Source of the DNA: a virus
Length of the DNA: 25,517 bases
Direction: 5' to 3' (one strand)
Virus record (IMG/VR): IMGVR_UViG_3300045412_000325
Coordinates: 1 to 25,517 of that record
A program made the translations under genes and the position numbers. Below, one piece after another: positions 8,939 to 25,057 of this stretch. The notes under the pieces were generated by a model. It made no database searches. It saw nothing but the letters and a program-made list of their open reading frames with translations, and was not told where the DNA came from. Position 1 is the first letter of the stretch. Each line of letters begins with the position of its first letter.

Positions 8939-8967
8939 ATTTTAATGTACTTTTATAGTTTTATCAA
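8939..8967 (-). promoter_or_regulatory. sigma70-like promoter predicting a leaderless mRNA
   Basis: TTGATA (8967-8962), 17-base spacer, TAAAAT (8944-8939), six bases (ATAGAT), then ATG at 8932. It overlaps the last codons of the AT-rich SGNH gene upstream, so background AT content lowers confidence. The geometry is identical to the promoters before rnh and the cupin gene. Confidence 0.5.
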
Positions 8968-10042
8968 CTTGATTTTGATAAAAATTTACCAAATTTTTAA
9001 AAAATTCTTCATGTTCTTCTGGAGATGCATGGTAATTATTATCTTTACAATATTTGCCATTGGGATTTATATCAAAATAAGGTGCCACATTATTTGGAAA
9101 TATTTTTTTATATATGTCATACTCTTCTCGAAAAAACGATATCAAATAAATTTTAATTTTTTTTTTTTCAACTTCATCAAGGAACTGTCGAATTAAAGGA
9201 ATCTGTACAGCTAGTAAAGGAACAATATCTAGATGTACAAAATAATCCAAAATATTTTTTGGAGTCATACCAGTAAACTCATCAATAAAAGTATCTTCTT
9301 TAGAATTGTCTGAATGTAATGACCATCTATGTACTTCTCCGGTTGTAGTATTTTTTATCTGTCTACCTAGAACACTAATAAGTTGTAAAAAAATAACATT
9401 GGAATGATTATATTTTAAAAAATATTTTATATTTTCTATTATCTCCTGATTTGTCAATGCTCCTAATCCAAAGTTAAATATGCTCATATTTTTAAATTTT
9501 TTTACAAACATATCCGCAAAATTATCTTTATTTTTAATAGGAGGCTTTCCTTTTTCAAAATTCCAATCAGTCATACTGGCGCCAAAAAATACAACATCGG
9601 CATTCAACCCTATTTGATTAAATTTTTTAATAGATTTAACTTTGTCATTTCTTTCTCCTTTAAGAGTTAGACATGGTATCCTTAATTCATACAAACCGTT
9701 AAGATTTAAATCAATTGTGTTTACAACATGATCATCTAAATAAAGATTATCTATAGTTTTAAAATTGCCGATAGAAGGATTAATCACAATGTCATTAATT
9801 GAAATATTTTTAATTTTAATACTTTGTTCGGGTTCGTTTGTAACAACAAATTTGTCTCTTCCTGAGCGTTGTATTTTTATTGATAAAAAATTATTATCTA
9901 AGTTAATAATTTCTTCAATTTTAATAAGAGCATTTAATTTTTGATTAATAAATTCTACGTCATTCAACCACATGATACAGTGAGGTGATATTATTTTAAA
10001 TGTAGGTTCTAGTTCGATAGTTATTTTTTGTTTTACTATCAT
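8942..10042 (-). CDS. SGNH-hydrolase-like protein with N-terminal beta domain, AT-rich cargo
   Basis: A 366-residue protein encoded in AT-rich DNA. Residues ~1-145 are rich in short beta strands (IKIKNISINDIVINPSIGNF) and may be a carbohydrate-binding or beta-sandwich module. From ~148 the SGNH fold begins: ADVVFFGASMTDW (Ser156 as nucleophile candidate), then NFGLGALTNQEI as the Gly block and FLQLISVLGRQ. Near the C-terminus, YHASPEEHEEF supplies a His where the catalytic DxxH is expected. Likely activity is acyl-ester chemistry on a glycan (inferred). It stands alone between queE (stop at 10049) and the small resident gene at 8932, without a Shine-Dalgarno. Together with the other SGNH genes it suggests surface-sugar modification by the phage or its host. 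Confidence 0.65.
   Translation of the reverse strand: MIVKQKITIELEPTFKIISPHCIMWLNDVEFINQKLNALIKIEEIINLDNNFLSIKIQRSGRDKFVVTNEPEQSIKIKNISINDIVINPSIGNFKTIDNLYLDDHVVNTIDLNLNGLYELRIPCLTLKGERNDKVKSIKKFNQIGLNADVVFFGASMTDWNFEKGKPPIKNKDNFADMFVKKFKNMSIFNFGLGALTNQEIIENIKYFLKYNHSNVIFLQLISVLGRQIKNTTTGEVHRWSLHSDNSKEDTFIDEFTGMTPKNILDYFVHLDIVPLLAVQIPLIRQFLDEVEKKKIKIYLISFFREEYDIYKKIFPNNVAPYFDINPNGKYCKDNNYHASPEEHEEFFKNLVNFYQNQVDKTIKVH
8942..10042. other. AT-rich inserted single-gene cassette
   Basis: The whole gene is far more AT-rich than queE on one side and the small resident gene on the other, with composition changing within a few bases of its start and stop codons. It lies only nine bases from the 8621-8932 gene, whose other side is also invaded. 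No mobile-element ends are visible. Confidence 0.55.
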
Positions 10043-10048
10043 AGTATA

Positions 10049-10909
10049 TTACGTACCCCATGCATTTTTAAACAGAGGCACCTGTAATCTATCGCTGTAT
10101 CTGTAGCCCATCTTCATGGCCAGTTCCGCCACTGTTTTGTTGTGCATGTGATACACACTCTCCACCCCGCCCACGGGCATGAGATATACCGATCCCGTAA
10201 ATCCATGTTTCTTGTAATCTTTCACTGCTTCTATGGCCTCATAGGCATCATCCATATCAGCAATCACAAATTTCAAATACACATGACCCACTTCACCATA
10301 TTCTGCAACTACTTCAGGCAGTATGGCTTCTTCCTTCTTCTCTCCGCTCACACTCAATTTCGCACTCACAGAGAATGTTATGGATTCTCGGCTTCTAACA
10401 TTTTTCTTGCTCCATTGGGAGAGATAATCTTTGAAATCTCGGTGTAACTTTTGTGTGCCATTGGTTTCAAAAGTGATCTCCTTTAGATCCTGCATCTTCG
10501 CATGCTCCAACACATCTGGATATGATCTCTGCCAACCCAACAATGGTTCACCGCCTGTGAATATAAAATGTTCATCCACCCATCGTTTGTGAGGCAATAT
10601 CTCCATTGTTCTTTCCACGATGGCGTCGCACGTCAGCATGGGAGATAAATCTTTGAATCTCGGATCCCACGATGCATATGAATCACAGCCTGTGTTCACC
10701 AAAGGTAATTCTTTGTAATCTTTGAATGGATGCAGTTTGTGTTGCTCAAACACTCGATCATGCTCATCACTCCTCATGCCTCTGGGCAATCCGAAACCGG
10801 AACAAGTGAAGTTGCAGCCAAATGTTCTCAGGAACACCGAAGGCACACCCATGTAGCGACCTTCTCCTTGTATGCTGTAAAATAGTTCCGCTACCTTAAT
10901 TTTGCTCAT
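10049..10909 (-). CDS. queE: QueE-like radical SAM 7-carboxy-7-deazaguanine synthase with long insertion
   Basis: Homologue of 7-carboxy-7-deazaguanine synthase, which converts carboxytetrahydropterin to CDG with S-adenosylmethionine and a [4Fe-4S] cluster. The N-terminus AELFYSIQGEGRYMGVPSVF is diagnostic, and FTGGEP at 117-122 is the SAM-binding motif. The cluster cysteines look unusual: C32 and C36 (GCNFTC) are as expected, but the third lies at C75 (NTGCDSYASWDP), giving CX3CX38C instead of CX3CX2C. At 286 residues it is longer than typical bacterial QueE (~210-225). The ATG lies 14 bases inside the end of the repeat mini-protein, with GAGG upstream. With FolE, the QueD-like protein and DpdA it forms a 7-deazaguanine DNA-modification set. 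Confidence 0.88.
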   Translation of the reverse strand: MSKIKVAELFYSIQGEGRYMGVPSVFLRTFGCNFTCSGFGLPRGMRSDEHDRVFEQHKLHPFKDYKELPLVNTGCDSYASWDPRFKDLSPMLTCDAIVERTMEILPHKRWVDEHFIFTGGEPLLGWQRSYPDVLEHAKMQDLKEITFETNGTQKLHRDFKDYLSQWSKKNVRSRESITFSVSAKLSVSGEKKEEAILPEVVAEYGEVGHVYLKFVIADMDDAYEAIEAVKDYKKHGFTGSVYLMPVGGVESVYHMHNKTVAELAMKMGYRYSDRLQVPLFKNAWGT

Positions 10910-11096
10910 TTAATGCCTCGACTGCTTCTAATATTTCTTTTATAGAAAATGTGTTATTTTTCTTCTGTCTATTCAATGTCTCAACTGCTTCCAATATTTC
11001 TTCCATGGAATATGTGCCATGTTTTTTCTTTTCCATTTCTGGATCGCTATCTAGAGTATATACTGGATATTCCTTTTCGTCAATTACCGAATACAT
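10896..11096 (-). CDS. 66-residue mini-protein with a tandem 21-residue repeat
   Basis: The second half of this acidic helical protein is a tandem duplication: YSMEEILEAVETLNRQKK and then FSIKEILEAVEALNEQN, at a 21-residue period. The N-terminal part (MYSVIDEKEYPVYTLDSDPE) is unrelated. It overlaps queE by 14 bases and starts 9 bases after the cupin stop, so it is part of the same unit. No known family. The repeat helices could mediate self-association or act as a small adaptor; this is speculation. Short length keeps confidence moderate, but the in-frame duplication argues it is a real coding sequence. Confidence 0.6.
   Translation of the reverse strand: MYSVIDEKEYPVYTLDSDPEMEKKKHGTYSMEEILEAVETLNRQKKNNTFSIKEILEAVEALNEQN
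10912..11016. repeat. 63-bp-period tandem duplication within a gene
   Basis: Two ~42-base copies, 10912-10953 and 10975-11016, both contain CTGCTTC followed by AATATTTCTT, exactly 63 bases apart. They differ at several positions, mostly silent or conservative in the encoded protein, so the duplication is not brand-new and has been kept in frame. Confidence 0.7.
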
Positions 11097-11105
11097 ATCG
11101 GTCTA

Positions 11106-11495
11106 CTATTTCTTATCTTTTTTGTCTAATCTAACCACGTTGCCGCTCTTGAAATGGCCCACGGTCTCTCTCTGTATGTCATCGTGGTTGAATTCTGCCC
11201 AATAGAGCTCAAAGGCCACCCCATCTTCCATGCCCTCGAACGAATGCATCAATCCCGGCTTGACCCTGGTGAAGTCTCCAGGTCCCAATATGGTTTCGTC
11301 TATGAGATCGTAGTCCTTCTGCCAGACTCGTATCTTCATACGGCCGCTGACCACGTAGAAACCGTTCCATTTGTACTGATGCTTGTGTTTGGAGCAGACG
11401 CCACCTGCCTTGAAATCTATCCTGTGGAATTCCAACACACCATTGGCGTGTATCAACTCCGTCTGCCCCCAAATTTTTCCTGCCTTGTTGCTCAT
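11106..11495 (-). CDS. cupin-domain protein
   Basis: A 129-residue single-domain cupin. Motif 1 includes HKH (H37, H39) and the following strand NGFYVVSGRMKI. Motif 2 is GPGDFTRVKPGLMHSF with H84. The usual Glu of motif 1 appears replaced (Asn44), so metal binding may be altered. Small cupins of this kind include sugar-phosphate isomerases, epimerase-like enzymes and dioxygenases; here it could act on a nucleotide sugar with GalE and the glycosyltransferase, but this is inference. The start codon follows the -10 box of a strong promoter by six bases with no ribosome site, predicting a leaderless mRNA. The Lys/Asp-rich end (RLDKKDKK) is disordered-looking. Confidence 0.78.
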   Translation of the reverse strand: MSNKAGKIWGQTELIHANGVLEFHRIDFKAGGVCSKHKHQYKWNGFYVVSGRMKIRVWQKDYDLIDETILGPGDFTRVKPGLMHSFEGMEDGVAFELYWAEFNHDDIQRETVGHFKSGNVVRLDKKDKK

Positions 11496-11501
11496 GTGTA
11501 T

Positions 11502-11530
11502 ATTATAAGGATATTTAGATCATAAGTCAA
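11502..11530 (-). promoter_or_regulatory. sigma70-like promoter with ATCTAAATATC spacer, predicting a leaderless cupin mRNA
   Basis: TTGACT (11530-11525), 17-base spacer, TATAAT (11507-11502), six bases, then ATG at 11495. It lies in the 53-base gap after the transporter gene. The spacer holds ATCTAAATATC, an 11-mer also present in the spacer of the sliding-clamp promoter. Both consensus quality and position in a true gap make this the strongest of the leaderless candidates. Confidence 0.68.
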
Positions 11531-11548
11531 ATAACCAAAAATATTCGA

Positions 11549-12190
11549 TTATCCTACCAATTTCCTATCCAATTTCCTTGCCAGGTAGGCCAGCAATAGG
11601 CCATAGGCCGGCACGAACACAACCTGTCCCACTATGATCTTGACCATGGTGTTGTTGAAGGCCACCGCATGCACCCACGGTTGTGGATAGAACGCAGTGT
11701 AGAAGAATATGTAGGTGTCTATGACGTTGGCAGCTATCATGCTCAGCGCCGGTGCCGCCCACCAATTATTTTTATATTTTTCTCTGATCATCTGGAACAC
11801 ATACACATCCAACAGTGTGCCGATACCATAGGCCACTCCCGATGCTATGCCCACTCTGTAGGCGTGCTTGTCGCCCAGATATAAGAGCACCAGTACCGAT
11901 GCCACGATGGCCGGTACGATGGCCAACGCAACCACTGCCCTTGCGCTCTGCTTACCGATCAATCTCACAGTGAGGTCGCTTGCCACCACCACCAGCGGAA
12001 AGGTGAATGCCGCCGCTGCCAGGGGAAAGTTGGTCTCCCACCCCAATATATTGATCTTTTCCGCGAACAAACTGAATCTTATAGTAACCAAGTAATTGCT
12101 CACAGCGATAATGATCGTGTGCAATATCACAAGGTTCCTGACCAATATCTTGTCCGTGCCTTTCAAAAGGTCCTGTACAAACTGTATCAT
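11549..12190 (-). CDS. yhhQ: YhhQ/QPTR-type queuosine precursor transporter
   Basis: A 213-residue integral membrane protein with about six hydrophobic segments. These include LVILHTIIIAVSNYLVTIRF near the N-terminus, FPLAAAAFTFPLVVVASDLT, AVVALAIVPAIVASVLVLLY and VKIIVGQVVFVPAYGLLLAY at the end. The sequence around FPLVVVASDLTVRLIGKQSA and the later APALSMIAANVIDTYIFF match the vitamin-transport-like YhhQ family, which imports preQ0/preQ1 in bacteria. A phage copy beside queE, folE and dpdA suggests it supplies deazapurine precursors to the infected cell. The ATG has AGGAG nine bases upstream. Its C-terminus ends in basic residues. Family assignment is fairly firm; the substrate is inferred from context. 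Confidence 0.85.
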   Translation of the reverse strand: MIQFVQDLLKGTDKILVRNLVILHTIIIAVSNYLVTIRFSLFAEKINILGWETNFPLAAAAFTFPLVVVASDLTVRLIGKQSARAVVALAIVPAIVASVLVLLYLGDKHAYRVGIASGVAYGIGTLLDVYVFQMIREKYKNNWWAAPALSMIAANVIDTYIFFYTAFYPQPWVHAVAFNNTMVKIIVGQVVFVPAYGLLLAYLARKLDRKLVG

Positions 12191-12209
12191 TTTTTTCTCC
12201 TGTTGTTTT

Positions 12210-12677
12210 TCATTTTTGCCATTCTTCCCATGGAAAAACCACCCATTGCGGATTTTCTTTTTTGTCTATCTCATAACCAAAATAGTCAACTTTTACTGGG
12301 GAAGGCCTGTTGTTGATAACCACCGCAAACTTAACTCTGTCATGTCGTCCGAAATTGTCCAAGATATATTGGAAGGTGGCTCCGGTGTCATTTATGTCAT
12401 CTATGATCAATATTTTTTTCTGGAAAGCGAATGCTTTCTCCAATGCCGACAGATTGGGCTTGGCGGCGTTATCCCTCAATCTCACATCCAAGACAGCATG
12501 TTCCTTCTTCAACCTGTGGGAAAGGTAAACTCCCGGAACGCAACCACCTCGGTTGATGCCCAGCAAGATATCAGGCAGCCACATGTCATGCACCAACTTG
12601 TCCTCTATCTGTATCAGTGCGTTGCGCATCTGTATGTTGGTGAAATATAATTTTTGCACAGTCATGTTATTTTCCAT
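12210..12677 (-). CDS. PRTase-family phosphoribosyltransferase
   Basis: A 155-residue type I phosphoribosyltransferase. The PRPP-binding motif ILIIDDINDTGATF spans residues 89-102, preceded by the PPi loop region LLGINRGGCVPG (38-49). The fold and size resemble xanthine/hypoxanthine-guanine phosphoribosyltransferases, which join a free purine base to PRPP. The start at 12677 lies within the last codons of guaC (11-base overlap) with AGGG upstream; a second ATG four codons in is possible. Next to GMP reductase it points to purine salvage: recovering free guanine released by DpdA base exchange is an attractive but unproven role. Confidence 0.82.
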   Translation of the reverse strand: MENNMTVQKLYFTNIQMRNALIQIEDKLVHDMWLPDILLGINRGGCVPGVYLSHRLKKEHAVLDVRLRDNAAKPNLSALEKAFAFQKKILIIDDINDTGATFQYILDNFGRHDRVKFAVVINNRPSPVKVDYFGYEIDKKENPQWVVFPWEEWQK

Positions 12678-13710
12678 CGAACACCCTGTTGATCACGTTG
12701 TTCACCCTCACGAAGTGTGCGCACTTGGGCATGTCTTTGATTCTTCTTGCTCCTATGTATGTGCAGGTGCTTCGCACACCGCCCAGGATCTGTTCCACGG
12801 TGTCCTTGACAGGACCTCGGTCATCCAATAAAACTGTTTTGCCTTCGGTGCCTCTGTAGCCATCTTTTCTCATTCCGTGTTTCTCGAACGCTGATTCTGA
12901 GCTCATGCCATAGAACACTCGCTTGCCGTCTCGCAGTTCCAGTTCCGATTCGTCATGTGCTGCCAGCATGCCTCCCAGCATCACGAAATGCGCCCCGGCC
13001 GCCAGGGCCTTGGCCACGTCACCGGACTGAGTGCAGCCACCGTCAGCTATGATGTGTCCACCCACCCCGTTAGCAGCGTCAGCGCACTCCACTATGGCGG
13101 AAAACTGTGGCACTCCCACTCCGGTTTGTGTCCTAGTGGTGCAAACCGATCCAGGACCTATTCCTATCTTGACCACGTCCGCTCCGTTGATGATCAATTC
13201 CTCTGTCATTTCTGGTGACACCACGTTGCCCGCTATCAGCACCTTGTCCGGATACTCCGACCTTATCCTCTTGACGAAGTCCACGAACTGCTCATGGTAT
13301 GCATTGGCCACATCCACAGTGATGGCTGGTATGTCCGGAAATGCCTGCATCACCTGTTTTAATGTTTGATAGTCTTGCGTCTGCTCGTCCCATATGGCAC
13401 CAGTGCCCACGCAGGCCGACACATATTTGAATTTCATTCCTGTGCCCGCTGTGTTCTTCCAATCCTGGAATGTGTAATGTTTTCGTATCACTGTCAGCAT
13501 CTTGTAGTGCTGTAACACCCTGGCCATGCTGAACGTGCCCACTCCATCCATGTTGGAGGCCATGATCGGAGTGTACGAAAGTTGTTTCTTGCTGTTGCGG
13601 AAAGTAAAATCTCTAGTAATATCCACATCTCTGCGGCTGTTCAGGGTGGATCTCTTTGGCTTCAGCAGCACATCCGAATAATCCAGATGTATGTTGTAAT
13701 CAATTCTCAT
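12667..13710 (-). CDS. guaC: GMP reductase
   Basis: A 347-residue protein of the IMPDH/GMP reductase TIM-barrel family, without the CBS domains found in IMPDH. The catalytic loop GIGPGSVCTTR lies at 183-193 with Cys190 as nucleophile, followed by QTGVGVPQ. IIADGGCTQSGDVAKALAAG and MLGGMLAAHDESELE match the phosphate-binding and flap regions. The length equals that of Escherichia coli GuaC. It converts GMP to IMP with NADPH, moving guanine nucleotides toward adenine nucleotides. The start overlaps the end of the preceding gene, and the PRTase gene overlaps its stop. In a DNA-modifying phage it may lower or rebalance the guanine pool; this role is inference. Confidence 0.9.
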   Translation of the reverse strand: MRIDYNIHLDYSDVLLKPKRSTLNSRRDVDITRDFTFRNSKKQLSYTPIMASNMDGVGTFSMARVLQHYKMLTVIRKHYTFQDWKNTAGTGMKFKYVSACVGTGAIWDEQTQDYQTLKQVMQAFPDIPAITVDVANAYHEQFVDFVKRIRSEYPDKVLIAGNVVSPEMTEELIINGADVVKIGIGPGSVCTTRTQTGVGVPQFSAIVECADAANGVGGHIIADGGCTQSGDVAKALAAGAHFVMLGGMLAAHDESELELRDGKRVFYGMSSESAFEKHGMRKDGYRGTEGKTVLLDDRGPVKDTVEQILGGVRSTCTYIGARRIKDMPKCAHFVRVNNVINRVFDGK

Positions 13711-14029
13711 CGACCTCTTCCTCTCTGCTTCTGCACATCTTTAATATATTTTGATAATGCTCCCAGGCCTGTTTCAGCGCAGGATATTTTTCATACAATT
13801 CAAACTCGTAATTCCTAAGAGCTGTTGAGCTCCACCCATCATAGGACACAGTGAAAGATGTTGCCGCGGTGCCGCTGCCCACGCCCTGCGGCAATACCGA
13901 GTTTGGATTCACTGAGAAAATACCAGGAATGTGCACTGCTCCGGTCTTGGGATCAAGATATCCCGGAGATGTTTGATTCTCCAATTCGGGAAATAGAGGA
14001 CAGGTGCTGACTGTTGAGCTGTTAACCAT
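13700..14029 (-). CDS. small hypothetical protein
   Basis: A ~109-residue protein. The ATG at 14029 (MVNSSTVSTCPLF) is preferred over an in-frame GTG at 14038; both overlap the end of folE. The first 75 residues are Ser/Thr/Gly/Pro-rich and beta-like (DPKTGAVHIPGIFSVNPNSV). The C-terminal part is a helix with YEFELYEKYPALKQAWEHYQ, a style common in small T4-like phage proteins. There is no enzymatic motif. It sits between folE and guaC and overlaps both, so it is co-expressed with the purine genes. Function unknown. Confidence 0.65.
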   Translation of the reverse strand: MVNSSTVSTCPLFPELENQTSPGYLDPKTGAVHIPGIFSVNPNSVLPQGVGSGTAATSFTVSYDGWSSTALRNYEFELYEKYPALKQAWEHYQNILKMCRSREEEVDEN

Positions 14030-14774
14030 TGGGACCACACTGAGTTTCTTGTAATTGAATGTTGTGCATGAATTCGTTCTTCAATGCGGGATCGTTTTTC
14101 AACAGACCTTTCAGAACAGTGGTCTGTGTGCTGGAGTTTATGCTCCTAATGCCCCTGTTCTCGCAGCAGCCATGCCTTGCCCTGATGTACACTCCCACCG
14201 CCGGACTCTCTGTGAGCTGTGATATCTTGTATGCTATCTTCTCTGTTAATTCTTCCTGCAGATGTCCGCGAGCTGCCTGATGTTGTGCTATCCTCGTGTA
14301 TTTGCTCAATCCGATCAACCTCTTGCCTGGCAGGCAGCCAATGTAGCACACTCCTGTGACGGGTTGATGGTGATGCGAGCACATGCTCCTGATGTCGGAC
14401 CTTATCACGATCAGTTGATCATAACGACCATCCTCGTTGGGAAAAGTTGTGACTTCGGGCGCGGGATTGTACCTGCCGCCCATTATCTCAGTGATGTACA
14501 TCTTGGCCAATCTCCTGCCCGTGCCTGCACTGTTGGGATCATTGGTCCTATCTATTATCAGACTGTCTAGCACTGCATCGAACTTCGTGGTCAATTCATC
14601 GATGAGTTTTTCTCTCTCGCCTTCTTGTATGTACTTGCTGATGTTATCTGCCGCAAAGAATCTCTCTCCTGCCTTGACGATTCTTTCGCGTATCTGTTGG
14701 CTGACAGGCTTATTTTTGTCCACCCATGTGTCCATCAAACCTTGTACCACGGGGTCTTTATTAATGTCGCTCAT
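14022..14774 (-). CDS. folE: GTP cyclohydrolase I
   Basis: A 250-residue FolE. The zinc site is visible as MCSHHHQP (C132, H134, H135) and C203 in RHGCCENRG, matching C110/H112/H113/C181 of the E. coli enzyme. GLSKYTRIAQHQAARGHLQE (155-174) and SSTQTTV (214-220) are further signatures. It converts GTP to 7,8-dihydroneopterin triphosphate, the first step of both folate and 7-deazaguanine synthesis. The ATG overlaps the galE stop (TGATG). The N-terminal ~40 residues form the usual helical extension. In this setting it most likely feeds queuosine-type base synthesis, as in other phages with DpdA and QueE. Confidence 0.92.
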   Translation of the reverse strand: MSDINKDPVVQGLMDTWVDKNKPVSQQIRERIVKAGERFFAADNISKYIQEGEREKLIDELTTKFDAVLDSLIIDRTNDPNSAGTGRRLAKMYITEIMGGRYNPAPEVTTFPNEDGRYDQLIVIRSDIRSMCSHHHQPVTGVCYIGCLPGKRLIGLSKYTRIAQHQAARGHLQEELTEKIAYKISQLTESPAVGVYIRARHGCCENRGIRSINSSTQTTVLKGLLKNDPALKNEFMHNIQLQETQCGPNG

Positions 14775-15766
14775 CAGTTCAAATCTTTTCTGTTGATCTT
14801 GTTATACCATTTTACAGCAGTCTGCACTATGTTGTCAATAGAACTATGCTTGGGTTCCCAACCCAATTCCGTTTTTGCACGTGTGGTATCGGCCACCAGT
14901 ACCGGGGGATCTCCTGCTCTGCGATCCATTTCCGCGATCTTTATGTTGCCCACATATTTTTTGATGGTTTCCAATAATTGCCTGTTGCTGGTGCTGACAC
15001 CAGATCCCAGATTATATCGCTCACAGATCACATCGCCCGATGCACGTTGAAGGGACAATACATGCGCATTGGCGAGATCGGTCACATGCACATAATCCCT
15101 CACACAGGTTCCGTCTGGAGTGTCAAAGTCAGTGCCAAACAACTTGAATTCTCTGTTGTGATATGCTGCTTCTATGGCCAGTGGTATGATGTGTGTTTCA
15201 TCCTCTCTCAGTTCGCCTATTTCGCTGTCAGCATCTGCCCCTGCTGCATTGAAATATCTCAAGCTCACACTGCTCAATCCATAGGCCACATAATAATCTT
15301 TCAGTATGTTCTCCACCATCAATTTGCTCCTGCCATAGGGATTGATTGGTTGCAGATTGGTCTCTTCGTCGTCGGCTATGCCATTTCGGGGAATGCCGTA
15401 GACTGCCGCGCTGGATGAGAACACGAACTTGTTAACACCTGCCTCTCTCAACCGATCTAATAGTTGCACAGTCATTATCACGTTGTTCTTGTAATATTTA
15501 GATGGATCTCGCACCGACTCTCCCACTTGTGTGTGTGCGGCGAAATGTATGCAAGAATCTATGTTGTATCTGTGAACTATTTCTTTTAGGAAATCTATAT
15601 CTCTAGGCAAGTGGCATTCAAATGCCGGACCATATTGTGTGGCCCATGGTTTGGTCTTTATATCACGGTCCACTACCACGGGAGTGAAACCATTTTTTGT
15701 CAGTTCCTTGGCAGTGTGTGAACCAATGTAACCGGCCCCTCCCACAACCAGCACTGACTTGTTCAT
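14774..15766 (-). CDS. galE: UDP-glucose 4-epimerase (GalE-like)
   Basis: The start is taken at the ATG at 15766 (MNKSVLVVGGAGYIGSHTAK), four bases after the stop of the glycosyltransferase. A longer frame from 15814 would overlap that gene and put 16 unrelated residues ahead of the Rossmann strand. The 330-residue protein has the NAD-binding GGAGYIG loop, FSSSAAVYG with the catalytic Ser, NPYGRSK containing the catalytic Tyr/Lys, and CVRDYVHVTDLA typical of GalE. It interconverts UDP-glucose and UDP-galactose (or GlcNAc forms). With the glycosyltransferase just upstream it probably supplies a sugar donor for decorating a phage or host structure. folE follows by a one-base overlap. Confidence 0.9.
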   Translation of the reverse strand: MNKSVLVVGGAGYIGSHTAKELTKNGFTPVVVDRDIKTKPWATQYGPAFECHLPRDIDFLKEIVHRYNIDSCIHFAAHTQVGESVRDPSKYYKNNVIMTVQLLDRLREAGVNKFVFSSSAAVYGIPRNGIADDEETNLQPINPYGRSKLMVENILKDYYVAYGLSSVSLRYFNAAGADADSEIGELREDETHIIPLAIEAAYHNREFKLFGTDFDTPDGTCVRDYVHVTDLANAHVLSLQRASGDVICERYNLGSGVSTSNRQLLETIKKYVGNIKIAEMDRRAGDPPVLVADTTRAKTELGWEPKHSSIDNIVQTAVKWYNKINRKDLN

Positions 15767-15770
15767 GCCT

Positions 15771-16949
15771 TTAATATTTGCTTTCGGATGCGGTGTTTCT
15801 ATAATGCCTGCCATCTCTCCTCCACTGCTCGCCCTTGCCCATCATGATGTCAATCATCCTATCAATGGTGCCATCGGTCCAGTCGGATATCTGTCCCATG
15901 TTGGCGGATGGTCGAGATAATAATGTTTTTAATTTTTCCATTGCGTCTCTGCCACTCCATGGCACGTACATCCTGGTCTCATCATTGGCAAAGGTCTCTG
16001 GGAATGATCTATACGCTGGGAACAGCACATTGCAGCCCAGTGTGTCTGCCTCTGATACTGTGTTGGACACCCAATCTTGCAGGGCACAGTTGAACAACAC
16101 TCTGGTGTCATTCAATAGTTCATAATAATCATTTTTTTTTAGGTTCTCATAGATTTTTAATGTACCTGCCTCGGCCATCATCCTTACTCGATTAACATAG
16201 ACAGGATTGTTGGACCTCAAGGGTCCCCCACAGAATACGGCAAATTCCACAGCGGGCAAAGTTTTGTTTGCATGCCATTGTTCTATCAGATCCATGAAGA
16301 ATCCAGGTTGTTTCTCCTGATCCCATCTGGCAGCAAATCCAACTCTGCGAGATCTTTGCTCAAATGGTTTGATCTTTTTGACTCTTTCCAGCACTTCTGC
16401 CTTGCCATAACTCAATCCAGATATGTTATAGATAGGAGCCCGCCAATTCGCTATCCTCATATGGGCCACCATCTCTTCATTGGTTGCAAGAATATGCACA
16501 TTGGGTATCTCATTACACATCTGTTCATATAGGCTCATCCACCGGCTCATGCCCCAAACATGTACGAAATCATCCGGGTCTATGGCCTGCGCCAGACATC
16601 TTAGATAGATCCTTGGCCTGTATTGTTCTGGAGATTGTTGTATGATATAAGGCAGTGATTCCATGCCCGGTTGGAACATGTCCTCAAAGAATATCACGTC
16701 ATCTGATGTGATTTCTCCCGCTTTCATCATCCGAACCAGATTCATCATTTGACTCATGCCAAAATAACTTCTCCCATGGGCGTCTAATACCTGTCCTGTC
16801 ACTATCGCTTTGGAATTATCTATAGTGGTGCCCGGAACGATCACATAATTTATACCACGTCTTTTATATACTCGTTCGGTCCAATCTGTCAATTGGAAAG
16901 TATATCGTGCCTGATAACTTTCAAGGCCCATATAAAATAATTTTCTCAT
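15771..16949 (-). CDS. GT-B-type glycosyltransferase
   Basis: The start at 16949 (MRKLFYMGLESYQARY) has AAGGAAC upstream; an upstream in-frame start at 17015 would overlap the previous gene and has no ribosome site. The ~392-residue protein has two Rossmann-like halves. The second begins near RRVGFAARWDQEKQPGFFMD, and contains the donor-side segment YYELLNDTRVLFNCALQDWV followed by SNTVSEADTLGCNVLFPAYR, the pattern of group 1 (GT-B) enzymes. The acceptor is unknown. galE starts four bases after its stop, so donor and transferase are made together. The target could be virion proteins, a host glycan or modified DNA; nothing in the sequence decides this. Confidence 0.75.
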   Translation of the reverse strand: MRKLFYMGLESYQARYTFQLTDWTERVYKRRGINYVIVPGTTIDNSKAIVTGQVLDAHGRSYFGMSQMMNLVRMMKAGEITSDDVIFFEDMFQPGMESLPYIIQQSPEQYRPRIYLRCLAQAIDPDDFVHVWGMSRWMSLYEQMCNEIPNVHILATNEEMVAHMRIANWRAPIYNISGLSYGKAEVLERVKKIKPFEQRSRRVGFAARWDQEKQPGFFMDLIEQWHANKTLPAVEFAVFCGGPLRSNNPVYVNRVRMMAEAGTLKIYENLKKNDYYELLNDTRVLFNCALQDWVSNTVSEADTLGCNVLFPAYRSFPETFANDETRMYVPWSGRDAMEKLKTLLSRPSANMGQISDWTDGTIDRMIDIMMGKGEQWRRDGRHYRNTASESKY

Positions 16950-16978
16950 TTGTTGTTCCTTTTTATTAATTCTTTGTA

Positions 16979-16991
16979 GGGTTACAAACCC
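16979..16991 (-). promoter_or_regulatory. short hairpin in the gap before the glycosyltransferase
   Basis: Minus-strand GGGTT-TGT-AACCC is a perfect 5-bp stem in the 55-base gap between two genes. There is no U-tract after it, so it is not a standard terminator; it could be an RNA-processing or stability element. It is weak evidence. Confidence 0.3.
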
Positions 16992-17004
16992 ATGTAAAAT
17001 ATTT

Positions 17005-17364
17005 TCATCGAGCAACCTTTGCTAATTTAACGCCACCATCACTGGTGTGTTTGATATCATAATCACATTTCGCTCGGAGATGCAGCCAGGTCCTGATCTT
17101 TTCATCTCGTACAAACAGGGTGACAGTGTCTTCCATGTCATCGTTGTAGCCGTGATAGGCCCAGATGAAATCCTTGCCATAGACGTAGCCAGCACTGCCC
17201 ATCATGGTGCACACATTGGCCACAGCATCCACGAACGTGTAGTCGGCATTGAGTGCTCCGCCACCTATGGGAAGATAACCTTTCCTTCGGGTCAGCGTCT
17301 TGACCGGCACGTTGACTTCTATTTTAACCTCTGAGGTATTCTGTTTTCGACCCATTTTCTCCAT
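17005..17364 (-). CDS. small hypothetical protein
   Basis: A 119-residue basic protein with a beta-rich N-terminus (SEVKIEVNVPVKTLTRRKGY), a central segment (NADYTFVDAVANVCTMMGSA) and a charged end. No family recognised. It overlaps the end of the QueD-like gene by 41 bases; a second ATG at 17355 with GGAG just upstream may be the true start. It lies between the QueD-like gene and the glycosyltransferase, so it is in the deazaguanine block by position only. Confidence 0.65.
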   Translation of the reverse strand: MEKMGRKQNTSEVKIEVNVPVKTLTRRKGYLPIGGGALNADYTFVDAVANVCTMMGSAGYVYGKDFIWAYHGYNDDMEDTVTLFVRDEKIRTWLHLRAKCDYDIKHTSDGGVKLAKVAR

Positions 17365-17746
17365 CTTCTGATACCTCTATTGTTATTCTCCTGCCTGGAA
17401 AACTTTCTATGATAGCAAGATATAGGTCATCCGATATCATTTCGCAGCTCTTGTTATCCAAGGACAACGTGTTCTCTGTGTATAATTTCTCCAACCATCT
17501 CTTGAACTGTATGAATTCTATGTCTCTGTCGTGGTGGAACACCTCTATCTCCACCCGGAAATGGAACATGTGCCTGTGCGGATGTCCCAGGAAGCTCACG
17601 TCATACTCGTCGCCTGTGGCCAATTTGGGATCCGTCAGCGCCGCGGGATATTTGTGTATGCCTTCCTTGCGGAAGGTGACCCAGATCCTCTTTTCGCTAA
17701 GGTTTAACTTCTCTCTCAATGCCTGTGATCTGTATGCCTCAATCAT
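17324..17746 (-). CDS. QueD/PTPS-fold protein with altered catalytic residues
   Basis: A 140-residue T-fold protein resembling 6-carboxytetrahydropterin synthase. The three zinc ligands appear conserved: H31 in KEGIHKYP (like FxAAHRL) and H57/H59 in PHRHMFHFRVEIEV (like HGHxxxVxV). DIEFIQFKRWL matches the VIDFxxLK segment. SCEMISDDL (E102) and IEVSED (E127) match the substrate-binding Glu positions. However, the catalytic Cys four residues before HxH is Leu53, and the LDH Asp-His pair reads LDN (His to Asn97). This suggests a QueD relative that no longer does the standard reaction; a decarboxylase acting on CDG (DpdL-type) is one possibility, from context. Its ATG overlaps the previous stop (ATGA). 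Confidence 0.62.
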   Translation of the reverse strand: MIEAYRSQALREKLNLSEKRIWVTFRKEGIHKYPAALTDPKLATGDEYDVSFLGHPHRHMFHFRVEIEVFHHDRDIEFIQFKRWLEKLYTENTLSLDNKSCEMISDDLYLAIIESFPGRRITIEVSEDGENGSKTEYLRG

Positions 17747-18279
17747 TTTATGATCTCATCCTTGCCATATTGACCCCAATCTGTGAATCCTGCCTTGTCT
17801 TTGAAGTCTCGCATGCTCATGGTCCACACGCCCGGATTGCTATGCCGGAAAGCCACGTCGTCGATCTTGATATGCAATTGCTTGTCATCGTCGCTGTCTC
17901 GGAATATGATCGAGCAGAATGGTATGAACTTGGGCTCGTTCCATATCAATGCAAATCTTTTTTTAACTTCCTCATGATCTGCATAGGGATAATCAATTGT
18001 GACATAATAACCATTGTCTAATAATTTTTTTATTTGGAAAACATGTGTGCCTATAGTGTATTTGAATGTCCTGTTGGCACCATAATACACTGCCTCGCAA
18101 CCGTTCAGCGTGGCCAGTTCCAATACTTCGTCAGTGTGCAATTCGTTAGTGGCCAAGAACAATGTTCTTTTACCATATGCCATGGTGTGCTCAATTTCTA
18201 TACCTGTAAATACCTTTACTAAGGTATTGTCAAAATGACCTGTGGCATAATCTCTGTGCATATTGTGTAATTGTAGCAT
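17743..18279 (-). CDS. hypothetical protein in the DpdA-QueD block
   Basis: About 178 residues when read from the ATG at 18279 (MLQLHNMHRDYATGHFDN). An in-frame TTG at 18297 is less likely as a start and neither has a clear ribosome site. The N-terminal half has an alpha/beta look (RTLFLATNELHTDEVLELAT, then LNGCEAVYYGANRTFKYTIG). The middle has IKKLLDNGYYVTIDYPYADH, and the C-terminus is acidic-aromatic. I recognise no family. Its stop overlaps the start of the QueD-like gene and it follows the YdcH-like gene, so it is in the same unit as dpdA and is a candidate accessory to base modification. An 8-bp hairpin lies inside the coding region (18209-18228). Confidence 0.68.
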   Translation of the reverse strand: MLQLHNMHRDYATGHFDNTLVKVFTGIEIEHTMAYGKRTLFLATNELHTDEVLELATLNGCEAVYYGANRTFKYTIGTHVFQIKKLLDNGYYVTIDYPYADHEEVKKRFALIWNEPKFIPFCSIIFRDSDDDKQLHIKIDDVAFRHSNPGVWTMSMRDFKDKAGFTDWGQYGKDEIIK

Positions 18280-18299
18280 AATAAAGTTATCAGTCAAGA

Positions 18300-18500
18300 T
18301 TAATTTATTTTTACCAATTCTTTTTCCAATTCTGCTATCTGATCTTTCAGAGACAGCTTCTCTTTCTTTAATCTCATCAATATAGTTTTGCTTTCCGGGC
18401 TCCTGTCATGGAGCCTCAATTCCGTGACTTCTGCCACCTTTCTATTTAGGTAATCGTGATGCAGTTGTAATTTCCTTAACTTTTTGTTTTTGTTTGCCAT
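18300..18500 (-). CDS. YdcH-like (DUF465-type) coiled-coil mini-protein
   Basis: The start is at 18500 (MANKNKKLRKLQLHHDYLNR), directly after the dpdA stop with GGAG upstream. A longer frame from 18590 would lie in dpdA. The 66-residue protein is two helices: LHHDYLNRKVAEVTELRLHD and a second containing LMRLKKEKLSLKDQIAELEK. The 'LKKExLxLKDxI' pattern is typical of the YdcH/DUF465 family of small bacterial coiled-coil proteins of poorly known function. Its position between dpdA and the unknown upstream of the QueD-like gene suggests a partner or scaffold role, but this is inference. Confidence 0.65.
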   Translation of the reverse strand: MANKNKKLRKLQLHHDYLNRKVAEVTELRLHDRSPESKTILMRLKKEKLSLKDQIAELEKELVKIN

Positions 18501-18501
18501 T

Positions 18502-19947
18502 TTATGCTCCTTCGAATAGTGAACTGAAATTATTCTTGCCCTTGCCTCCACCTGTGGCCCTCTGCCATCTGGTTCCCCTGAGATCTGCAAGGAATGACGT
18601 GGTAGAACTGATCAATTCCATGGGTTTCGCAGACTTGAACAGCTCTTCAACAAATGTGTTGAAATATAAAATATTACGTGGAACGAAATCACTCATTTGA
18701 TCCGTGTTGTCTGAATCTTTGATCTTTCTCCAATGTTTGACCTCGGGTTGATGCTTGATGGATTCTATGTCATTCATGTCATTGGCAATCTGTACCGCTC
18801 TGATATGATTGTAAACATTGTGTGCCATCATTAATACATAACTGAAACTGTCCCAAGAGGTCTTGCCTTCCTTGTTGTTTTTGTTTAGGTCGCCTTCTCC
18901 ATACCAACAAACATCTCCCATGTTCAATCTGTTTCCTATGGCAGATTTGAATGGGAATGGTATGGTGCTGCCTTTCAATCTCCTGTCATCTGGTGCCTTC
19001 TCCATGATGTAACTCCATCTCTTTGGAGTGAATAGATTATGCGTGTAGACCAATCCATTGGCTGTGCTTAAGAAAGCAGATGCAGAATCAAAACTGATTG
19101 TGACGTCTGGATTTACATGTTTCCTTAACTGTCTCTGTATCTGTGTTAGGAAACAAGCCCAGTCCAGTTGTGATGTGCCCAGCACGTGTATCCAATTTTT
19201 TTTATCTAATTTTTTCTCATCTCTCATTATGATCAATCTTTTTAATAGCACTTCCATGTCGCACATGTTGATTCCTCCCATTGCCCAACCTTCGAACTCG
19301 AAATCTTTGATGGCATTATACCATGTTTGTGCTGTCTCCCAGTCGTCGCCCTGCAACACGTTTAGAAATTTTGTATGTCCCAGCCTATTCTTTTGAAAAA
19401 ATTTGTTGTTGTAGATTGTGCCATTTAGTGTATCTTCGAAACTTTTCAATCCTGTTTTTGGAGAATTAAGGTCATCCGCCGCCCAGGTCGGCACGTCCAA
19501 TGTCATTGACCAATCCGCGGTGAGCTCCAACCAATTCAAAATATCTGATCTAGTTTTATTGGCTTTGTTGCCTTCGAAATCCTTCCAATCAAAATTTATG
19601 ACGCCCTTGCCTATCTGGTATCCACCAGAGTCTCCAACTATTATGGAAAAATCCCTATCTCTCTGCACGCACATGCTGTCAGCAACAGGGGCCTTGCTAA
19701 CCTCCAGGCACGCATGTCCCGCCGAGTACAGTCCCACATCATAGGTGAAATATCCCTTTTCCGGATTGAGAAAGTTCAATCCTTCCACATTGTTTTCAAA
19801 AGCCGCTGGTATCCTTTCCTTGGGTATGTGATCACCTTTTGCTCTCTGTTTGCTAATGAAAGTGTTGTAGAAGTTGGATATGGCTGGCAAGAACTTGGCG
19901 AAGTCCCTGTTCAAAGGTGCCAGATGTTCTTGCCTGTGATCTGCCAT
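18502..19947 (-). CDS. dpdA: DpdA-like DNA 7-deazaguanine transglycosylase (TGT family)
   Basis: A 481-residue member of the tRNA-guanine transglycosylase superfamily resembling phage DpdA, which swaps guanine in DNA for a 7-deazaguanine base. TGT-like motifs appear in order: DSGGYQ (106-111, the substrate-binding Asp region), LDVPTW (150-155), VLQGDD (197-202), GWAMGG (220-225), HVLGTS (254-259) and TISFDSASAF (283-292) holding the candidate nucleophile Asp287. The C-terminal Cys/His zinc site of tRNA enzymes is not evident, consistent with a DNA rather than tRNA substrate. The start codon overlaps the sliding-clamp stop (TAATG), so modification enzyme and clamp are co-translated. With folE, queE, the QueD-like gene and yhhQ in the same array, DNA modification is the natural reading. 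Confidence 0.82.
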   Translation of the reverse strand: MADHRQEHLAPLNRDFAKFLPAISNFYNTFISKQRAKGDHIPKERIPAAFENNVEGLNFLNPEKGYFTYDVGLYSAGHACLEVSKAPVADSMCVQRDRDFSIIVGDSGGYQIGKGVINFDWKDFEGNKANKTRSDILNWLELTADWSMTLDVPTWAADDLNSPKTGLKSFEDTLNGTIYNNKFFQKNRLGHTKFLNVLQGDDWETAQTWYNAIKDFEFEGWAMGGINMCDMEVLLKRLIIMRDEKKLDKKNWIHVLGTSQLDWACFLTQIQRQLRKHVNPDVTISFDSASAFLSTANGLVYTHNLFTPKRWSYIMEKAPDDRRLKGSTIPFPFKSAIGNRLNMGDVCWYGEGDLNKNNKEGKTSWDSFSYVLMMAHNVYNHIRAVQIANDMNDIESIKHQPEVKHWRKIKDSDNTDQMSDFVPRNILYFNTFVEELFKSAKPMELISSTTSFLADLRGTRWQRATGGGKGKNNFSSLFEGA

Positions 19948-24240: not shown

Positions 24241-24779
24241 AATAATTTGTTTATATTGTCTGCTACTATGCGATTACCTTCATTAGACATATGATTTATA
24301 TCTCCAGGGTATGTTTTCCAAATATGATTATAATTATTCTTAATTTTTTTTGTATCATCTGGTTCATGAAATGTTATATGAATCGTATTCTTTAACAATA
24401 ATAATTCTTTTACTAGCAATTCGTAAATGTCTAGTTGATAATCAAAATCATAATATTTTTTAATATATTCGTAAACTAGTCTTATTTCCTTGTTTATCTT
24501 ACTATGATGTGCTAGATCGTTCAACATAAAATCATTTTCCGGTCGGTCAATACTATTTTTGTAAATTGGATGATTACGTGTGTGTATTCTCCATGGAGAT
24601 GTGTAACAAATAATACTTTTATCAAAATTTAAATTTTGCATTATTTTCTTAAAAATTTTATATTGTCCAACACCATTTTGTGCAAAATTTTGTATTTCTA
24701 CATCAATGTTTTTATTAAGCATGCTTACCCATCCTTTAGAATTTGCGGCAAAACTGTCTCCAAATACAAATAGTCTCAT
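24237..24779 (-). CDS. SGNH/GDSL hydrolase, AT-rich cargo inserted before the polymerase
   Basis: The start at 24779 (MRLFVFGDSFAANSKG) overlaps the stop of the upstream membrane gene (TAATG); a longer frame from 24848 lies inside that gene. The 180-residue protein is a compact SGNH hydrolase: block I GDSFA with Ser9, the Gly/Asn block NFAQNGVGQY, and a C-terminal GDINHMSN supplying the catalytic Asp-x-x-His. All key residues are therefore present, unlike the SGNH-like gene at 7624. Likely an acyl esterase acting on a glycan. Its DNA is much more AT-rich than the polymerase and dsbA-like genes on either side, indicating insertion. It now sits upstream of, and is coupled to, DNA polymerase. 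Confidence 0.75.
   Translation of the reverse strand: MRLFVFGDSFAANSKGWVSMLNKNIDVEIQNFAQNGVGQYKIFKKIMQNLNFDKSIICYTSPWRIHTRNHPIYKNSIDRPENDFMLNDLAHHSKINKEIRLVYEYIKKYYDFDYQLDIYELLVKELLLLKNTIHITFHEPDDTKKIKNNYNHIWKTYPGDINHMSNEGNRIVADNINKLL
24240..24777. other. AT-rich inserted single-gene cassette
   Basis: The composition switches to strongly AT-rich exactly between the polymerase start codon and the stop of the membrane gene. The single gene keeps overlapping start/stop codons on both sides. No flanking repeats are visible. Confidence 0.55.
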
Positions 24780-25057
24780 TAGAAAAATACCAAGTAATTG
24801 CCAATGCAATTCATCAGTGTGAACCAGCTGGCCAACATAGTTATCCATAGGTTCCTCCTGCGATAGGCAGAATAGGCCATGGTGGTGGATCCTATCAGAT
24901 AGAAAGGAAACACCAAGTTCATCTGCGGGTGTGGGCTAGTGAATGTCAGCACCAAGGAACCAAATATAGTGAATATCAAACTGATCAGTTCATAGTAGAA
25001 TGCCACATGATCCGTTCTATAACTATTGGTCCAGAATTGCCTTATGATGCCATACAC
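24779..25057 (-). CDS. small membrane protein (about three TM segments)
   Basis: A 92-residue protein starting with GTG at 25057; the stop of the dsbA-like gene overlaps it (TAGTG), and there is no early in-frame ATG. Hydrophobic stretches are VAFYYELISLIFTIFGSLVL, LVFPFYLIGSTTMAYSAY and LWITMLASWFTLMNCIGNYL, consistent with three transmembrane helices and a basic loop (YRRRN). Function unknown; small inner-membrane proteins of this type occur in many T4-like phages. It is co-transcribed with dsbA. Confidence 0.7.
   Translation of the reverse strand: MYGIIRQFWTNSYRTDHVAFYYELISLIFTIFGSLVLTFTSPHPQMNLVFPFYLIGSTTMAYSAYRRRNLWITMLASWFTLMNCIGNYLVFF

Follow-up and report, generated by a model that had tools for sequence, protein, structure and literature searches.

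A widely conserved set of deazaguanine genes, which very likely exchanges guanine in phage DNA for a 7-deazaguanine base, occupies the minus strand at positions 10049 to 19947 of the window, the 25,517-nucleotide stretch of viral DNA analyzed here (IMG/VR record IMGVR_UViG_3300045412_000325). The original prediction, which gave the same positions and strand, held that the phage carries 7-deazaguanine in its DNA, and this is now well supported by the fold and invariant active-site motifs of a DpdA-like transglycosylase, the presence of FolE and QueE, and the conservation of the block, so that we regard it with high confidence. The protein families, the folds of the transglycosylase and of a glycosyltransferase, their invariant active-site residues, and the tight, repeated linkage of the genes are established. 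The most informative partners of the transglycosylase are two pairs that the first reading overlooked, a glycosyltransferase with an epimerase and a purine phosphoribosyltransferase (PRTase) with a GMP reductase (GMPR). The best explanation of the block is post-replicative DNA hypermodification with guanine recycling and base glycosylation, which we give an even chance of being correct.

The transglycosylase and its gene block

The 481-amino-acid (aa) protein, whose gene adjoins the DNA polymerase gene, had no match in Pfam, PHROGs, or NCBIfam and none by profile among PDB sequences. Its AlphaFold2 model (pLDDT 84.3, pTM 0.88) has the TIM-barrel fold of tRNA-guanine transglycosylase (TGT). All 50 of the matches listed in a Foldseek search of the PDB were TGTs (best E value, 1.5e-7), and VIA aligned the model with TGT over 308 residues (Z 19.8, rmsd 4.5), which excludes a position outside the TGT superfamily. 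TGT and DpdA enzymes are marked by a catalytic Asp pair, a D-SGG-x-Q motif, and a QG motif. The motif D106-SGG-x-Q111, residues D151 and D287, and the QG motif are invariant in 32 of 32 aligned rows, and the Asp pair is kept in all three rows from named phages, where positions 199 and 224 vary. Membership in the TGT/DpdA superfamily, as first proposed, is thus upheld by fold and motifs. The protein shares with TGT the fold and the order of active-site motifs and differs in its sequence (about 15% identity), its greater length, and its setting in a phage genome, which suggests a DNA substrate; from this setting and from precedent, the enzyme would target DNA rather than tRNA. The model also matched an uncharacterized protein of nt-1 (structural E value, 1.5e-9), and the 481-aa profile matched neither DSGGLQ-type DpdA nor the 9g region.

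Table 1. Genes of the block in the window
Feature	Position	Strand	Basis
DpdA-like DNA transglycosylase, 481 aa	18502..19947	-	Predicted TGT fold and invariant motifs
u184, conserved block member	17743..18297	-	74/74 and 25/25 testable loci in two clades
"QueD-like" protein, phrog_17812 family, not QueD	17324..17746	-	phrog_17812 E 1.2e-34
u119, window clade only	17005..17364	-	65/66 versus 0/18 testable loci
Glycosyltransferase, GT-B fold, GT4-like; probable ATG at 16949	15771..16949	-	Predicted structure
UDP-glucose 4-epimerase GalE	14774..15814	-	TIGR01179 359.2 bits (cut-off 262.3)
FolE, GTP cyclohydrolase I	14022..14774	-	PF01227 126.7 bits (cut-off 27)
u112	13700..14038	-	53/53 versus 2/12 testable loci
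GMP reductase (GuaC type)	12667..13710	-	NF003470 468.4 bits (cut-off 397)
Purine phosphoribosyltransferase (Gpt/XGPRT type)	12210..12677	-	PF00156 48.1 bits (cut-off 26.3)
YhhQ-type queuosine-precursor transporter	11549..12190	-	TIGR00697 84.2 bits (cut-off 50.95); PF02592 72.7 bits
Cupin	11106..11495	-	PF07883 36.1 bits (cut-off 27.2); 34/34 testable loci
QueE, 7-carboxy-7-deazaguanine synthase	10049..10909	-	phrog_2076 E 2.4e-49; PDB QueE E 8.9e-6

The block is real and larger than first described, as GMPR, the PRTase, the glycosyltransferase, GalE, a cupin, and several conserved unknowns, among them u184 (no Pfam or PHROG match), had been passed over (Table 1). The earlier assignments of the DpdA-like protein, FolE, QueE, the YhhQ-type transporter, and a family-B polymerase (phrog_262, E 3.3e-200) stood. 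The QueD identity did not, and the clamp was not confirmed, its gene product matching phrog_12062 ("unknown") and no PDB sequence. The identical gene order was seen again in dozens of contigs, far beyond chance, and at least 546 of the 598 stretches matched in a DpdA profile scan encode a relative. Gene presence was counted by clade in contigs that are, like the window, fragments, and a locus was testable for a gene if a later gene was present, a rule that slightly favors complete loci. On this basis, the window clade carries GMPR at 53/53 loci, the PRTase at 43/43, the glycosyltransferase at 59/60, the QueD-like protein at 70/70, FolE at 53/53, QueE at 17/17, and the transporter at 28/38. In a second clade, the glycosyltransferase (18/18), the QueD-like protein (23/23), and QueE (11/11) are likewise constant, the PRTase is present at 7 of 12 loci and missing at 5, and GMPR was found at none of 12.

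Genes for the deazaguanine base

FolE, QueE, and the transporter each have a supporting family match and fall short of other models: FolE is below the NCBIfam FolE cut-offs, QueE is below those of Pfam radical-SAM and NCBIfam QueE, and the transporter scored 131.7 bits with NF008406, under its cut-off of 252. By eye, the QueD-like protein has three His residues and a C-terminal Glu, as in QueD/6-carboxytetrahydropterin synthase (PF01242), from which it differs in having no PF01242 (PTPS) match at an E value of 0.1 and in having Leu in the slot of a Cys that is catalytic in QueD. The Leu occurs in 22 of 22 rows, with the slot set by an H-x-H motif and the profile alignment being weak. In addition, 10 of the 11 named phages with the QueD-like protein encode a separate PTPS/QueD protein elsewhere in the genome. 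These three points rule out QueD. Comparison of the two families with hhalign gave a probability of 5%, too weak for a claim of homology, a search of PDB sequences with the QueD-like protein returned nothing useful, and two QueD-like fusion proteins had no Pfam match. The QueD-like protein possibly acts on the QueE product. Work by Cui in 2023 reportedly covers DpdA3/DpdA4 and a decarboxylase, DpdL, said to act on 7-carboxy-7-deazaguanine; the QueD-like protein would suit such a step on the product of QueE, a likeness in presumed role.

Five named complete phages have DpdA, the QueD-like protein, and the glycosyltransferase in common, and QueC above the cut-off was found in none of them, so that neither plain preQ0 nor archaeosine is the product to be assumed first. 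QueC was present above the cut-off in 1 of 20 window-clade contigs, which are fragments, and in 1 of 13 and 1 of 14 records; QueF was found in 0 of the 20 contigs. The transporter argues for imported preQ0 over a QueC-free base. The PP-loop of QueC is expected to carry an SGG motif, and the QueC-like proteins of 269 to 270 aa in two close relatives of the window, L085 and L086, were not accepted as canonical QueC, as their PP-loop is without this motif by eye. In L085, the neighbors of this protein look structural.

The glycosyltransferase and purine gene pairs

In GT4-type enzymes, two domains form a GT-B fold, and the donor site carries R/K and E residues. The window glycosyltransferase model (pLDDT 76.5, pTM 0.72) has this fold, with its best Foldseek match to BshA (E 6.2e-10) and a VIA alignment with glycogen synthase over 326 residues (Z 21.0), and R206, K211, and E298 are invariant in 19 of 19 rows. 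T4 glucosyltransferases were not among the structure matches listed, which excludes nothing. GT4 folds serve many acceptors, tetrahydrobiopterin included (5ze7).

The gene-anchored scans started from DpdA-linked alignments and covered the best 80 loci each at most. Anchored on the glycosyltransferase, DpdA and the QueD-like protein were both present at 38 of 38 fully flanked loci among the matches listed, 31 of them outside the window clade. The named phages Paride, Phosso, BUCT-ZZ01, ACP17, and X1 carry the glycosyltransferase together with DpdA of two types; in Phosso, DpdA is about 170 kb away. It is from this gene linkage that the window enzyme putatively acts on DNA. In 6 of the 11 named phages, the regions retrieved encode the QueD-like protein but not this glycosyltransferase. 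Gp469 of Vibrio 2.275.O, adjoining its DpdA, was considered as a relative of the glycosyltransferase and is not related.

GMPR matched human GMPR2 at 452 bits versus 214.9 bits for the best IMP dehydrogenase, which, with the NF003470 score, rules out IMP dehydrogenase; its TIGR01305 score (439.2 bits) is under that model's cut-off of 492. Residues C190, T192, and E289 are invariant in 11 of 11 rows. The PRTase is below the NCBIfam cut-offs, and its nearest solved relatives are a PDB purine PRTase (E 9.3e-20) and XGPRT (E 6.8e-11). Deazaguanine-module genes were present at 39 of 40 fully flanked PRTase-anchored loci and at 21 of 21 GMPR-anchored loci among the matches listed, and GMPR lies in a second position, upstream of DpdA, at 12 of those 21. 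The six phage records with a PRTase match are the same six that carry the QueD-like protein (duplicates included). None of 12 named phages of the deazaguanine type has GMPR, and Cr30, RAS14, and XacN1 have it but neither QueE nor PTPS.

Proposed pathway and alternatives

FolE, then a true QueD encoded elsewhere in the genome or by the host, and then QueE would convert GTP to 7-carboxy-7-deazaguanine, which would probably be processed by the QueD-like protein. DpdA would put the processed base into phage DNA in place of guanine, and the free guanine released would be converted to GMP by the PRTase and then to IMP by GMPR, so that waste guanine would be recycled and purine pools balanced. The inserted base would probably gain a sugar from the glycosyltransferase, supplied by GalE. 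We infer each of these reactions, the identity and the acceptor of the sugar, and protection against restriction. Salvage by the PRTase and GMPR of the guanine released by DpdA is somewhat probable, and attachment of a sugar to the inserted base has a little under an even chance. The joint proposal, that a deazaguanine made without a phage QueC via 7-carboxy-7-deazaguanine and inserted by DpdA is turned by the QueD-like and GT4-type proteins into glycosylated 7-deazaguanine while the PRTase and GMPR regain guanine, is put forward tentatively.

The phage DNA may instead contain ordinary deazaguanine of the kind found in 9g, CAjan, and nt-1 (dPreQ0, dG+, or a minor variant). In that case, preQ0 would come from a QueC of the host or through the transporter, and the genes for sugar and purine reactions would serve other needs. 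DpdA, FolE, and QueE would be enough given host help, the transporter is present at 28 of 38 testable loci, and some phages are without pathway genes and some have YhhQ (Hutinet 2019, PMC6884629). However, this reading is rather unlikely given the glycosyltransferase beside DpdA and the QueD-like protein (38/38) and the PRTase with deazaguanine genes (39/40) at fully flanked loci among the matches listed, and given QueC above the cut-off in 0 of 5 named phages with the glycosyltransferase. Hutinet 2019 (PMC6884629) also suggested a boost of queuosine for phages with pathway genes but without DpdA, and FolE, QueE, and YhhQ are queuosine genes as well. That the block raises host tRNA queuosine rather than modifying phage DNA is nevertheless highly improbable, as a divergent DpdA-type enzyme adjoins the DNA polymerase and a queuosine-finishing enzyme is absent among the 20 window proteins in a Pfam scan.

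The two gene pairs may also have separate roles. The UDP-glucose:tetrahydrobiopterin glucosyltransferase 5ze7 (Z 19.2) is one of the many GT4 enzymes matched by the glycosyltransferase model, the product of FolE is a precursor of pterins, and L019 keeps the block without the glycosyltransferase, all consistent with a pterin, a capsid or tail protein, or the host envelope as the target of a merely co-inherited glycosyltransferase and GalE. Such a target seems rather improbable against the presence of DpdA at all 38 fully flanked loci among the matches listed and the adjoining of the two genes in phages of two DpdA types. A general role in salvaging purines when host DNA is degraded, or the making of deazaguanine nucleotides by the PRTase, in place of the recycling of guanine released by DpdA, would fit the phages with GMPR but without QueE or PTPS, and it is possible, if doubtful, in view of the deazaguanine genes that accompany the PRTase and GMPR at 39/40 and 21/21 fully flanked loci among the matches listed.

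Hypermodification with guanine recycling and base glycosylation has in common with the phage DpdA/DpdA2 systems of 9g, CAjan, and nt-1 (Hutinet 2019, PMC6884629) a TGT-superfamily enzyme, FolE, QueE, and a DNA base exchange that is presumed here. It differs in a sequence-divergent DpdA matched by no family model, in the addition of the QueD-like second protein, glycosyltransferase, GalE, PRTase, and GMPR, and in the named glycosyltransferase phages being without QueC above the cut-off, whereas the transglycosylase of the 9g region has a canonical QueD, a QueC-type protein, and QueE as neighbors. The system of T4-type DNA glucosyltransferases (PMC13216743) shares a GT-B fold enzyme, proposed here to decorate phage DNA, and differs in that the acceptor of the window enzyme would be a substitute for guanine.

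Base exchange by DpdA should release one guanine per modified site, the fate of which was not found addressed in the literature searched, and a PRTase and GMPR that track DpdA are a concrete candidate answer. The glycosyltransferase beside DpdA predicts a sugar on the guanine substitute, and glycosylated 7-deazaguanine, if true, would bring purines, in addition to pyrimidines, within the range of phage DNA glycosylation; no description of guanine recycling or of sugar attachment in such systems was found in the literature searched. The module is common, and most of it lacks annotation in the cultured phages that carry it, among them Pseudomonas phage Paride (host PAO1), Synechococcus phage BUCT-ZZ01 (host strain PCC 7942), and Sinorhizobium phage Phosso.

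Gene order and the DpdA-like protein

The linear 25,517-base IMG/VR record carries a deazaguanine DNA-modification block that is real, conserved, and widespread. As originally noted, all of its genes lie on one strand, the − strand. Read 5' to 3' on that strand, a family-B DNA polymerase, a methyltransferase-like protein, and a presumed clamp precede the DpdA-like protein, followed by a small frame, the conserved protein u184, a "QueD-like" protein, the conserved protein u119, a glycosyltransferase (GT), GalE, FolE, the conserved protein u112, a GMP reductase (GMPR), a purine phosphoribosyltransferase (PRT), a YhhQ-type transporter, a cupin, a doubtful 66-aa frame, and finally QueE.

Locations of features in the window and in other viral or phage loci (L-numbers)
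Feature	Location	Observation
Protein upstream of polymerase	24237-24848	Faint SGNH-hydrolase-like match (E 0.06)
DpdA-like protein	18502-19947 (−)	
u184	17743-18297 (−)	
"QueD-like" protein	17324-17746 (−)	
u119	17005-17364 (−)	
Short frame	~16984-17010 (−)	MKIFYMGL-stop, immediately upstream of GT start
GT	15771-16949 (−)	
u112	13700-14038 (−)	
GMPR	12667-13710 (−)	
PRT	12210-12677 (−)	
QueE	10049-10909 (−)	C-x3-C-x38-C (Cys 32, 36, 75); unusual insertion preceding third Cys
Stretch beyond QueE	8942-10042	No match in Pfam or PHROG
QueC-like	L085:913-1722	C-terminal Cys motif, degenerate PP-loop
QueC-like	L086:1462-2274	As L085; adjoins radical-SAM-like frame
DSGGLQ-type transglycosylase-like, BUCT-ZZ01	L126:9264-10511	
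DSGGLQ-type, ACP17	L131:9698-10969	
DSGGLQ-type, Mendera	L135:7752-8963	
DSGGLQ-type, X1	L144:6614-7924	
Glycosyltransferase-like, BUCT-ZZ01	L126:10507-11847	PF13692, below cut-off; adjoins transglycosylase-like gene
"QueD-like" fusion, Vibrio phage Bakedbeans	L145:7254-8402	N-terminal domain added
"QueD-like" fusion, Chryseobacterium phage MA9V-3	L148:7431-8309	N-terminal domain added

No family model in Pfam, PHROGs, or NCBIfam matched the 481-aa DpdA-like protein, and a profile of 21 relatives found nothing among PDB sequences. Its AlphaFold2 model, built from 32 aligned sequences (pLDDT, 84.3; pTM, 0.88), matched tRNA-guanine transglycosylases (TGTs) in all of the 50 best PDB rows listed by Foldseek (best E value, 1.5e-7), and a second structural comparison aligned 308 residues with the Thermotoga enzyme (Z, 19.8; rmsd, 4.5). 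Matching viral models included the "tRNA guanine transglycosylase" of phage Motura and an uncharacterized nt-1 protein. The residues D106-S-G-G-x-Q111, D151, Q199-G200, G225, H254, and D287 are unchanged in all 32 aligned rows; in three named-phage rows, both Asp residues are kept, and positions 199 and 224 vary. From motif order, we take D106 and D287 to be the TGT catalytic pair. The predicted fold and invariant motifs thus establish the proposed membership in the TGT/DpdA superfamily. We infer action on DNA from the genome setting and, by analogy, from the phage precedent described in PMC6884629.

Conservation and distribution of the block

Among 118 DpdA loci examined, 92 with DpdA at least 70% identical constitute the window's clade, and a slot was considered testable when some later block gene was present in the locus. 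By this measure the clade retains u184 (74/74), the QueD-like protein (70/70), u119 (65/66), GT (59/60), GalE (56/56), FolE, u112, and GMPR (53/53 each), PRT (43/43), cupin (34/34), QueE (17/17), and YhhQ (28/38). After thinning at 95% DpdA identity to 35 loci, GMPR was found in 24/24, PRT in 20/20, and GT in 23/24. In L019, the sole testable locus of the clade without GT, GalE directly follows u119. A second clade of 26 loci (DpdA identity, 54 to 62%) has u184 (25/25), the QueD-like protein (23/23), GT (18/18), and QueE (11/11), with PRT in 7/12, FolE in 6/13, GalE in 2/13, and GMPR in none of 12 testable loci. Many GTs in this clade are of a shorter type but still align with that of the window, and in L108 a UDP-glucose/GDP-mannose dehydrogenase lies downstream of GT.

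Viral contigs were also searched with GT, PRT, and GMPR separately, and other block genes were then sought nearby; loci in which 7 kb or more was available on both sides of the anchor were termed fully flanked. The alignments were seeded with DpdA-linked loci, the best 80 matches are biased to close relatives, and some contigs are shared between scans. DpdA occurred in the fetched stretch of 74 of the best 80 of at least 315 GT relatives, and the other 6 loci end within 2.1 kb upstream of GT. All 38 fully flanked GT loci, 31 of them beyond the window's clade, have DpdA and the QueD-like protein, together with a GalE-type gene (37), FolE (36), PRT (18), QueD (18), QueE (14), and GMPR (8). A deazaguanine gene was near PRT in 78 of the best 80 of at least 552 loci (exceptions, L273 and L300) and in 39 of 40 fully flanked ones (QueE, 38; FolE, 36; QueD-like, 33; DpdA of either type, 32). 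For GMPR, deazaguanine genes were found in 45 of the best 80 of at least 580 loci and in all 21 that were fully flanked (DpdA itself in 20); each of the 35 loci without them extends less than 7 kb on one or both sides. GMPR lies 5 to 6 kb upstream of DpdA in 12 of the 21 fully flanked loci, a position different from that in the window.

A search of 50,697 phage records identified 13 with the window's DpdA family, always annotated as hypothetical: 11 from PA5oct/Paride-like Pseudomonas phages (one a duplicate genome) and one each from Sinorhizobium Phosso and Vibrio 2.275.O. In the regions fetched, the GT family occurs in Paride, Phosso, BUCT-ZZ01, ACP17, and X1, near the QueD-like protein and QueE in all five and near FolE in all except Paride; in Phosso, some 170 kb separates DpdA from GT. 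Six of 11 named phages have the QueD-like protein without the GT family in the fetched regions. ACP17, BUCT-ZZ01, X1, and Mendera carry a second, DSGGLQ-containing transglycosylase-like type, annotated as queuine tRNA-ribosyltransferase only in X1; neither type is detected by the profile of the other. GT paired with the QueD-like protein is therefore seen alongside two DpdA types. The entire block is present in L149, a contig assigned to a Rickettsiales MAG (MED657), and Novosphingobium, Polynucleobacter, and Erythrobacter contigs (L150 to L152) have a distant DpdA with other block genes absent from the fetched stretch.

Probable origin of the inserted base, and the "QueD-like" protein

QueC scored above the cut-off in one of 20 contigs from the window's clade, and appears degenerate there. 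It also did so in one of 13 additional records (Vibrio 2.275.O, also annotated with QueF and not among the QueD-like or GT matches) and in one of 14 others (Vibrio D479, partial). No QueC reached the cut-off in Paride, Phosso, BUCT-ZZ01, ACP17, or X1 (X1 match, 16.2 bits; cut-off, 22). This pattern suggests that the base is made from carboxy-deazaguanine without a phage QueC. QueC could instead come from the host, and the presence of a YhhQ-type transporter favors uptake of preQ0 at some loci.

The "QueD-like" protein of the original description, a member of phrog_17812 (function unknown), is not QueD. It has no PTPS match in Pfam, and the slot of the cysteine that is catalytic in QueD holds Leu in all 22 aligned members, whose invariant residues include three His, a Cys-Glu pair, and a C-terminal Glu. 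Of 11 complete named phages encoding the QueD-like protein, 10 also have a separate PTPS-family protein (5/5 and 5/6 in two sets; Vibrio D479 is the exception), as do 5 of the 16 IMG/VR contigs examined, which are fragments. Profile comparison with QueD was weak, and common ancestry is thus not claimed. Since a carboxy-deazaguanine decarboxylase, DpdL, exists, a step on the QueE product would be an attractive role for the protein. In its two fusions, the added N-terminal domain, for which Pfam gave no match, may offer a clue to what the protein does.

Proposed guanine recovery and sugar addition

GMPR exceeds its NCBIfam cut-off (468.4 versus 397 bits) and matches human GMPR2 at 452 bits versus 214.9 bits for the best IMPDH; judged by sequence, its identity is secure. 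The 155-aa PRT, whose closest solved structures are purine PRTases and XGPRT, is assigned as a purine PRTase. GalE is above its curated cut-off. The original description did not include GMPR, PRT, GT, or GalE. The GT model (pLDDT, 76.5; pTM, 0.72) has a GT-B, GT4-like fold matching BshA, LmbT, MshA, glycogen synthase, and tetrahydrobiopterin glucosyltransferase (5ze7). The short frame before the GT gene resembles the GT start in relatives (MKIFYMGLE), which suggests that the gene's 5' end has undergone recombination.

The conversion of GTP to carboxy-deazaguanine via FolE, QueD, and QueE is established chemistry, and TGT chemistry releases guanine. Here, these three enzymes, with QueD coming from another part of the genome or from the host, would supply carboxy-deazaguanine, and DpdA, following family precedent, would exchange bases in DNA and free guanine. 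Family functions and gene positions suggest a role for PRT and GMPR in salvaging this guanine, linkage suggests that GT places a sugar on the inserted base, and the modified DNA, by analogy, may be protected from restriction. Guanine recovery and sugar addition are two testable ideas added to known deazaguanine modification. A limited survey, from which we claim no priority, found no account of GMPR/PRT guanine salvage or of glycosylation tied to deazaguanine or DpdA, either in the consulted parts of PMC12783734, PMC12707154, PMC13216743, PMC13390438, and PMC10761892 or in the PA5oct/Paride modification literature covered.

Counting against guanine salvage, Cr30, RAS14, and XacN1 have GMPR with no QueE or PTPS found. 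GMPR was absent from all 12 named phages tested. Sequence search placed the PRTase in 6 of 50,697 records, several being one phage, and the same 6 have the QueD-like protein; profile search added a Paride PRTase that adjoins QueE and also matches PF00156. Campylobacter phage CP21 (L134) provides another case of a sugar enzyme near deazaguanine genes: its QueE adjoins the gene for a UDP-glucose dehydrogenase.
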